Assembly (NCBI GenBank): GCA_001304015.1
Contig: LJUY01000008.1
Span: 12,804 to 76,803 of the forward strand
Length of the DNA stretch: 64,000 nt
Origin: a candidate division Zixibacteria bacterium SM23_81
GTDB taxonomy: Bacteria; SM23-81
Direction of reading: 5' to 3'
Both the position numbers and the translations under genes were made by a program. Within the stretch, counting starts at the first letter, position 1. Each line of letters begins with the position of its first letter. The notes beneath the pieces are model-generated. The model made no database searches. It saw only the letters and a list, made by a program, of their open reading frames with translations, and had not been told where the DNA came from. Shown piece after piece: positions 12,233-14,760 of the stretch.

Positions 12233-12432
12233 AATCGCACTCGTTGTCAAGGGTCGAGGATTGGGGGGAGAGTATTTAGGGGAGAGGGACTCCATCTCGT
12301 GTTCCGATCTCTAAAACAGTGTGACCAGATTTGATATATTTTTCCCTCAATCCTAATTCCTCTATCCGAAAATCTGAGATAGGGAGTTGGGAGGGGGAAG
12401 ACGCTACTTCTCAAACAGTAAGGATTCAAGTC

Positions 12433-13440
12433 ATGTTTTCCAACGAACCCAAACGAATCTCCTTGGCTCGTTTGCCTACTCCCATCCAGAAGCTGGAGAA
12501 GCTGATCGCCCTGTTTGGCGGGCCGGAGCTGTATATCAAAAGAGACGACCTGACGGGCATCGGGTTGTCAGGGAACAAGGTGCGCAAGCTGGAGTATCTT
12601 CTGGCCGATGCCAAAGACCAAGGCGCCGACACATTGATTACCTGCGGTGGCATCCAGTCCAATCACAGCCGGGCCACAGCCATCGCCGCCACTCAGAACG
12701 GCATGGATTCAGTTCTCGTCCTGCGAGGCAAGAGAGAGACCCCTTACGATGGCAACGTCCTTTTGGACAAGCTGGTGGGTGCTGAGATCCGGCTGGTCAC
12801 CCCCGAACAGTATGCCCAGCGGATCGACCAGATCATGGAGCAGGTGGGCCAAGAGCTCAGAGACCAGGGGCGTCGACCATACGTCATCCCCGAAGGTGGG
12901 TCCAATCCCATCGGGGTCTGGGGCTATATCCGAGCAAGCGGCGAGATCAAGGACCAGCTGGAGGAGATGAACCTGAAGGTCGATGCGGTGGTCACCGCCG
13001 TGGGCTCCGGGGGGACCCAGGCTGGACTGTTAATCGGTGGGAAGCTGAGTGACTTAGGAGCTCGCGTTGTGGGATTCAACGTCTGCGATACCGCGAAGCA
13101 CTTTCAAGCTCGCATCGGCCGTCTGGTGGCTGAGACTATTGAGAAATACGCCCTGCCATGCCAGATCTTCCCAGATGAGATTCTCCTGGTGGATGGATAC
13201 GTCGGCCGAGGATACGCTTTAAGTCGGCCCCAGGAGCTGAAGCTCATCAAGACGGTAGCCCGCCAGGAGGGCGTCTTCCTGGATCCAGTTTACACGGGCA
13301 AAGCCCTCTTCGGCCTGGCCGATCAGATTCGCCGGGGACGTTTTAAAAAAGGGGAGAAGATTCTTTTCCTGCACACTGGAGGCATCTTCGGACTTTTCGT
13401 CCAGGAGAAGAGAGAGGGGTTATTCCCCGGAAAGGCTTGA
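12433..13440 (+). CDS. D-cysteine desulfhydrase / ACC deaminase family PLP enzyme
   Basis: A 335-residue fold-type II PLP enzyme. Start chosen at 12433 (MFSNEPKRISLARLPTPIQ), with AAGGA nine bases before; the open frame extends 34 codons further upstream without support. Motifs: LYIKRDDLTGIGLSGNKVRK with the PLP-binding Lys of SGNKVRK near residue 50, TCGGIQSNHSRATA for the substrate pocket, VVTAVGSGGTQAG as the phosphate-binding loop and LFLHTGGIFGLF near the end, all typical of D-cysteine desulfhydrase (DcyD) and ACC deaminase. These enzymes break D-cysteine or related amino acids to pyruvate, ammonia and sulfide. Which substrate is used here cannot be decided by eye. A terminator follows. 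Confidence 0.88.
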   Translation: MFSNEPKRISLARLPTPIQKLEKLIALFGGPELYIKRDDLTGIGLSGNKVRKLEYLLADAKDQGADTLITCGGIQSNHSRATAIAATQNGMDSVLVLRGKRETPYDGNVLLDKLVGAEIRLVTPEQYAQRIDQIMEQVGQELRDQGRRPYVIPEGGSNPIGVWGYIRASGEIKDQLEEMNLKVDAVVTAVGSGGTQAGLLIGGKLSDLGARVVGFNVCDTAKHFQARIGRLVAETIEKYALPCQIFPDEILLVDGYVGRGYALSRPQELKLIKTVARQEGVFLDPVYTGKALFGLADQIRRGRFKKGEKILFLHTGGIFGLFVQEKREGLFPGKA

Positions 13441-13480: not shown

Positions 13481-13518
13481 AAAACCTCCTGTGTTCTTTT
13501 TCCCAGGAGGTTTTCTTA
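13481..13518 (+). terminator. Rho-independent terminator after the PLP enzyme gene
   Basis: Perfect 11-base inverted repeat AAAACCTCCTG (13481-13491) and CAGGAGGTTTT (13504-13514) with a 12-base loop, followed by CTTATG. It sits 40 bases after the stop codon. The A-rich and T-rich flanks allow it to work in both directions. Confidence 0.85.
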
Positions 13519-13726
13519 TGAAAATTGGGTACGCTGTACTCAATTGAGATGTTCCCCGTGACCGAGTCTAACAGCGCTGGTGTTCGCGAATTGGCGACAG
13601 TGCCATGAGCAGTTTGTCCTAAGTGCTAAGTGGCAGAGTGAGCCGAGGGTCGAGATCTTGATTTTTAGTTAAAGCTAATTGATTGATATACTAGTAGTTA
13701 TCTTTGTTTTCGGCGCGCCGCCCGGA

Positions 13727-13743
13727 TTGGCACGCAGCTTGCA
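13727..13743 (+). promoter_or_regulatory. Sigma-54 (RpoN) -24/-12 promoter
   Basis: TTGGCACG-CAGC-TTGCA matches the sigma-54 consensus at every fixed position, with GG and GC elements separated by ten bases. Transcription would start near 13754, directly before the inverted-repeat element at 13765. No enhancer-binding site with clear dyad symmetry was recognised upstream, although the region 13660-13710 is A+T-rich as expected for bending. No protein gene follows on this strand for several kilobases. Confidence 0.75.
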
Positions 13744-13753
13744 CCTTGAGCTT

Positions 13754-13860
13754 CACACATCCGGAAACTGAACGGGGGGAGATGTTGGTGCCCCTGTCAC
13801 GCATCTGTGATCTGACATCTCGCTACCGCCCAGGTCTTCCCCCGTCAGTTTCATCATGCT
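13754..13860 (+). ncRNA. Candidate structured small RNA downstream of a sigma-54 promoter
   Basis: The expected transcript begins with a few bases and then an outer stem of 13 base pairs with one bulged A: AAACTGA(A)CGGGGG at 13765-13778 pairs with CCCCCGTCAGTTT at 13839-13851. Inside are a seven-base stem GAGATGT (13779-13785) with ACATCTC (13815-13821) and a small hairpin TCAC/GTGA (13797-13810). GAGAT can also pair with the outer strand (TCTT side) or with CATCT at 13802, so alternative folds exist. No T-run terminator follows. No open frame with a ribosome-binding site lies in it. The promoter plus the nested stems support an RNA; expression is inferred. Confidence 0.5.
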
Positions 13861-13950
13861 CGTATGGTGAGGATGCGAGATCTGCCGGTGAGGGGAGGAA
13901 TGCGTGATTCGAGTGCCTCAATGAGAGAGCTTGGTCTTATCAGTCTGTTG

Positions 13951-14015
13951 TCATTGCGAGCCCCTTCACGAAGTGAAGCATCTAGGGCAGGCTCCGGCGA
14001 AGCAATCTTCGGGAA
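13951..14015. repeat. CATTGCGAGC-type dispersed intergenic repeat
   Basis: The sequence TCATTGCGAGCCCCTTCACG followed by AAGTGAAGCATC and later GGCGAAGCAATCTTCGGGA is the widespread CATTGCGAGC...GAAGCAATC repeat found between genes in many bacterial lineages. It contains a TTCACGAAGTGAA palindrome. Only one clear copy is seen in this window. Confidence 0.6.
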
Positions 14016-14290
14016 AAAGATGGTAGGTATTCGGCATACTATGCCCTGTGCTGAGAAATGCCGGATGCGATCTGTACACATGGTAAATGTTGGGTTTCGT
14101 TTATAGGGGGGAATGGTTGTTCGCTTCTGCGTGGGATGATAGCGCCCCACAAGCATGACGTCTAAAGGTACAGCGATTGGGATAAGACTGTGAAGGTGTA
14201 CTTTCATATGCCCTTGCTGCTGTATTGGCAGTATGAAGCTTGGTGAGGGCTCGGAGTCTTTTGTTAATATTGGTCTTCACATTTAAATTT

Positions 14291-14313
14291 CCCGAAAGTT
14301 TCAAACTTTCGGG
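14291..14313. repeat. Perfect inverted repeat (hairpin)
   Basis: CCCGAAAGTTT and AAACTTTCGGG, eleven bases each, separated by one base. Preceded by AAATTT and followed by AAGTT; lacks a T-run, so terminator function on either strand is uncertain. Confidence 0.6.
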
Positions 14314-14357
14314 AAGTTACACCTTCATCTGCTCTTCATCTATCAGCACTACCACTT

Positions 14358-14568: not shown

Positions 14569-14760
14569 CTACCGGATCAGCAATCCCAAGATGAGCAGAA
14601 TTGCGCCTATGTAGGCCTTGTGGATGTGAATGCCGAAAGGTCTGATGGTATACTTGGCCGGAATGTGGCCCACGGGGCTGTGATGTCTCCACATCCAGAA
14701 GTGTTCGTAGAGATCGGTTAGGATGAGCAGCATTCCTAGAGCTAGCAGGACCTTTGTCAT
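14569..14760 (-). CDS. Small two-helix membrane protein
   Basis: A 63-residue protein consisting of two hydrophobic helices (residues about 3-16, VLLALGMLLILTDL, and 48-61, KAYIGAILLILGLLI) joined by a histidine-rich loop (YEHFWMWRHHSPVGH). The composition and hairpin layout look like a real small membrane protein, possibly metal-binding through the histidines, but no ribosome-binding site is obvious and the family is not recognised. It lies downstream of the L9 gene on the same strand, 224 bases away and beyond a hairpin. Confidence 0.5.
   Translation of the reverse strand: MTKVLLALGMLLILTDLYEHFWMWRHHSPVGHIPAKYTIRPFGIHIHKAYIGAILLILGLLIR

Follow-up and report, generated by a model that had tools for sequence, protein, structure and literature searches.

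Does a consensus sigma-54 promoter, followed by a strong hairpin and by no recognisable protein gene, mark a real small RNA (sRNA) gene in an uncultured member of the candidate division Zixibacteria? We have considered this question for an intergenic locus of a 64,000-nucleotide stretch of the SM23_81 genome (referred to here as the window), in which a first-pass annotation had proposed a regulated small RNA or an RNA switch. Judging from its sequence and from that of a relative, the locus is very probably a real sRNA gene under the control of sigma-54 through a far-upstream activator site. Its features are as follows:

12331-13440, + strand: PLP-dependent enzyme gene (Pfam PF00291, PALP fold), the syntenic anchor directly upstream of the RNA
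13482-13513, + strand: hairpin resembling a terminator (AAACCTCCTG/CAGGAGGTTT, followed by TTCTTAT), read from the sequence, assigned to the upstream gene and outside the RNA
13527-13541, no strand assigned: palindrome GGGTACGCTGTACTC, putative site of an enhancer-binding protein (upstream activating sequence)
13728-13743, + strand: sigma-54 (-24/-12) promoter TGGCACGCAGCTTGCA, perfect consensus, with a predicted start at about 13754
13754-13764, + strand: predicted 5' leader of the RNA, unconserved (38% identical in the relative, i.e., background)
13765-13851, + strand: long hairpin with arms 13765-13788 and 13830-13851, 22 pairs
13791-13812, + strand: invariant loop segment CCCCTGTCACGCATCTGTGATC, 22 nt identical in both genera

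Promoter and hairpin in two genera

The promoter and the hairpin are each weak evidence when taken alone. The promoter has no mismatch to TGGCAC-N5-TTGCW, so that its description in the first-pass annotation as consensus-perfect was accurate, and a pattern scan found it to be the sole perfect match in the window. By itself it proves little, since around two chance sites are expected per 64 kb (three matches with at most one mismatch versus 2.05 expected) and the whole 3.07-Mb genome contains nine perfect sites versus five for the reversed control. The folding energy of the window hairpin (-46.9 kcal/mol, z -3.4, with z -2.9 for the copy in the relative) is not exceptional either, because 16 of the 3196 segments of equal length in the same 64 kb fold equally well.

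What places the locus above chance is that a second genus has these elements arranged in the same way. The search of relatives provided one further copy of the RNA unit, in G001, a Candidatus Zixiibacteriota MAG (DAOVRJ010000014.1) from another genus of the same family, where it follows the ortholog of the PLP-dependent enzyme gene (80% identical as protein), in the same orientation. This enzyme is presumably similar to D-cysteine desulfhydrase or ACC deaminase. A terminator-like hairpin similar to that at 13482-13513 appears at the matching place in G001; our automatic terminator scan, limited to 8-nt loops, missed the one in the window, whose loop is longer. The spacing from palindrome to promoter (186 bp) and from promoter start to stem start (37 nt) is the same to the base in both genomes, and the G001 promoter (TGGCACACAACTTGCC, 13 of 16 columns identical) also keeps its distance to the hairpin. 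Identity reaches 87% in the hairpin (78 of 90 columns), with ca. 35% in the DNA between palindrome and promoter and 51% at the four-fold-degenerate sites of the neighbouring enzyme gene, and it stops where the hairpin ends. From these comparisons, the locus shows the pattern of an enhancer-promoter-RNA unit apparently under selection. The main limit on this evidence is how few lineages it covers, namely two genera within a single family. In another genome of the phylum (G003) the orthologous region is interrupted by a contig end, and in G002 there is no match to the upstream PLP-dependent enzyme gene.

The RNA product and its rival readings

The window hairpin begins 11 nt past the predicted start, where the first-pass annotation had located a stem-loop, and the 13-bp outer stem with one bulge that had been described there is confirmed and does not vary between the two genomes. 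This stem continues to 22 pairs, all of them kept in both copies. As regards the compensatory changes suggested earlier as a check, two U-A/U-G changes are compatible with the stem, but they are one-sided, and the comparison of two sequences contains no two-sided covariation, a result that points to consistency and not to proof by covariation. The inner 7-bp stem (GAGATGT/ACATCTC) does exist in the window, but two of its seven pairs are broken in G001, and because of this loss the nested structure with alternative pairings is not supported. Within these two sequences the 22-pair stem is kept and no reading frame is (an ATG in the window hairpin is ATC in G001), as in a structured non-coding product. 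The loop at 13791-13812 is the best candidate for a functional contact.

A sub-case of the sRNA explanation, possible but doubtful, is that the RNA is a protein-binding decoy that works through this invariant loop, in the way CrcZ sequesters Hfq/Crc. The loop segment shows no change, whereas compatible changes are tolerated in the stem, and duplex predictions between the loop and the few mRNA leaders compared (those of ssb, the secreted protein, the regulator, the kinase and the upstream gene, see below) gave no convincing complementarity, with one value of 0.025 among 12 tests that is not significant. However, a pairing seed would likewise be invariant, and the repeated A-rich or GGA motifs of known Hfq/CsrA decoys are absent by eye.

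It is improbable that the hairpin instead belongs to the 5' leader of an overlooked + strand gene, perhaps one for a small protein, and serves it as an attenuator or RNA switch. The automatic scan (loops up to 8 nt) detected no canonical terminator directly 3' of the hairpin, small ORFs exist downstream (e.g., 13864-14106), and the G001 contig stops 101 nt beyond the hairpin, leaving its downstream side beyond comparison. Nevertheless, the downstream ORFs are without a Pfam match, as would agree with the earlier statement that no protein gene follows on the strand, and conservation ends with the hairpin, two facts for which action in trans would be favoured over a cis switch. With no recognised gene following on the same strand, and with the inner stem broken in G001, the features of a riboswitch or cis-leader, a controlled gene downstream and conserved alternative pairings, are not found, as far as the G001 contig extends, and the RNA switch of the first-pass annotation was not sustained. 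That the hairpin functions as DNA, be it the end of a mobile element, a recombination site or a dispersed repeat, with a promoter beside it by chance, is very improbable, for although it forms a strong inverted repeat whose reverse strand also folds, it is single copy in each genome, at an orthologous position, and the sigma-54 promoter and the palindrome are conserved with it at identical distances.

Some other features were noticed further downstream in the window. The region 13950-14010 contains GTCATTGCGAG...CGAAGCAATCT, which we take to resemble the dispersed palindromic repeats of environmental bacterial genomes (GTCATTGCGAG is found once in the window). At 14286-14318, in the intergenic region, two 16-nt arms separated by a 1-nt gap form a nearly perfect inverted repeat (AATTTCCCGAAAGTTT/AAACTTTCGGGAAGTT). 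Finally, between the RNA and the ribosomal L9 gene, an ORF of 63 aa (14569-14760, - strand) with hydrophobic, membrane-like stretches has no Pfam match.

Upstream palindrome and putative regulon

The earlier reading had overlooked both a putative regulon and the palindrome (13527-13541) to which it is attached. The position of this palindrome relative to the promoter, equal in both genomes, falls within the 100-200 bp expected of an upstream activator site, a role for which it is a candidate, and activators of this type usually bind far-upstream palindromes (PMC6296734). Perfect palindromes of the form GRGTAC-N3-GTACYC occur at three places in the 3.07-Mb genome (~0.7 expected by uniform chance), all three upstream of a sigma-54 promoter, at 146, 186, and 199 bp, with a mismatch to the 16-base pattern at the final position of the third of these promoters. 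The palindrome was first spotted at 13527-13541, so the independent evidence comes from the other two places; the chance probability of two perfect palindrome-promoter pairs is about 2e-6. Palindromes with one mismatch were taken as chance occurrences and rejected as regulatory sites, none of the seven examined in this genome having a comparable sigma-54 promoter beside it.

The second palindrome-promoter pair precedes the gene for a secreted protein, the C-terminus of which resembles FlgD_ig and Por_Secre_tail (just under the Pfam cut-offs); in G001 the ortholog of this protein, 59% identical, has retained the sigma-54 promoter, with a degenerate palindrome at 150 bp. Another pair precedes a gene for a single-strand-binding protein (SSB; L102 16009-16404, on contig G000:C79) that is without the usual acidic C-terminal tail, a DDDLPF tail being present on another SSB in G001. 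This SSB unit is located directly 3' of the genes for a histidine kinase and an NtrC-type response regulator, and its palindrome starts a few bases past the stop codon of the regulator gene. This response regulator is the strongest candidate for the activator. It was not found in G001, where contigs end on either side of the kinase/regulator stretch and the gene would fall in that assembly gap.

As for the rest of the machinery, whose presence the first-pass annotation had proposed to verify, rpoN (PF04552) was found once in the genome together with about ten full-length sigma-54 activator proteins (PF00158). Like the -24/-12 promoter at the 5' side of the RNA, kept in the second genus, they are what is found with sigma-54-activated sRNAs. 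Regulators of ca. 1,700 residues were also seen, conserved between both genera (L102 1-4923 on G000:C79 and L103 2758-7866 on G001:C296), which presumably join a Ser/Thr-kinase-like domain, an ATPase, TPR-like repeats, GAF, a sigma-54 activator AAA+ and an HTH in one chain.

The promoter, the palindrome, the spacings in two genera, the conserved hairpin, rpoN, and the palindrome-promoter pairs upstream of two further genes are read directly from the sequence, and the regulated small RNA of the first-pass annotation gains support from the conserved promoter and hairpin, the fixed spacing, the upstream palindrome, rpoN, and the enhancer-binding proteins. We consider it likely that the locus produces a stand-alone non-coding sRNA from about 13754, under sigma-54 and an NtrC-type regulator, and acting in trans. 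Going beyond what is read directly, we infer transcription, the regulator that binds, the 3' end, the trans action, and the existence of targets. The response regulator, likely phosphorylated and most likely the one on G000:C79, would bind the palindrome at 13527-13541 and contact the sigma-54 polymerase across a DNA loop of ~186 bp, activating the promoter at 13728-13743, from which transcription would start at about 13754. The predicted product, of about 100 nt, would consist of a short leader and a long hairpin of about 88 nt that exposes the invariant loop, and this loop would most likely act in trans, either by base-pairing to target mRNAs or as the binding site of a protein.

A probable new family among sigma-54-dependent sRNAs

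None of the covariance models of Rfam 15 matched at its gathering score (with permissive thresholds the best E-values were 1.9 and 0.43, their scores falling far short of the gathering level), and a covariance model of the RNA run over 386 genomes, all four of the phylum included, recovered only the copies of the window and G001 and no homologue outside the family. When 84,980 genomes were searched with a 17-mer taken from the invariant loop, matches came from G001 and from seven unrelated places, the latter discarded since the covariance model finds no copy there. Matches with two mismatches in G002 and G003 were likewise rejected as they are inside genes that, in our own reading, code for proteins. 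Given the absence of an Rfam match and of any relative outside the family in the 386 genomes, the RNA is best filed as a new family that would function like known sigma-54-dependent sRNAs (GlmY, CrcZ, NrsZ).

Sigma-54-dependent sRNAs also include the Qrr RNAs, which are under LuxO. NrsZ of Pseudomonas aeruginosa is under NtrB/C and RpoN (PMC8395346), and shares with the RNA described here an RpoN promoter with an NtrC-type response regulator as (here predicted) activator; however, NrsZ is beside ntrC, whereas our candidate regulator is on another contig and the RNA has no Rfam match. The Pseudomonas CrcZ/CrcY, under CbrA/B and RpoN (PMC6296734, PMC8395346), have a sigma-54 promoter, a two-component response regulator, and upstream activator sites, as predicted here, but the CbrB sites are three non-palindromic subsites (PMC6296734) instead of one perfect palindrome, and CrcZ measures 407 nt (PMC8395346) versus the about 100 nt predicted for this RNA. 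The arrangement also recalls GlmY of E. coli, controlled by QseE/QseF = GlrK/GlrR (PMC6075780, PMC3162934), with a two-component system, upstream activating sequences, a sigma-54 promoter, a structured sRNA, and a regulon that includes another gene (rpoE for GlmY), although the partner protein of GlmY is RapZ and the RNA here matches no Rfam family.

The locus would extend sigma-54-controlled sRNAs beyond the examples of Pseudomonas, enterobacteria, and Vibrio. An uncultured and sparsely sampled phylum (four genomes) gains, from sequence alone, a concrete regulatory RNA candidate with its promoter, enhancer site, and probable activator, and a putative regulon of three members can be named. It is a speculative and on the whole unlikely proposal that this sRNA family, specific to the lineage, serves as the RNA branch of a regulon under two-component and sigma-54 control (site GGGTAC-N3-GTACCC) that also drives the tail-less SSB and the secreted FlgD-like protein, in an envelope and DNA-handling response in which the loop would make a new RNA-protein or RNA-mRNA contact. 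If true, such a regulon would be a combined envelope and DNA-handling response without earlier description.
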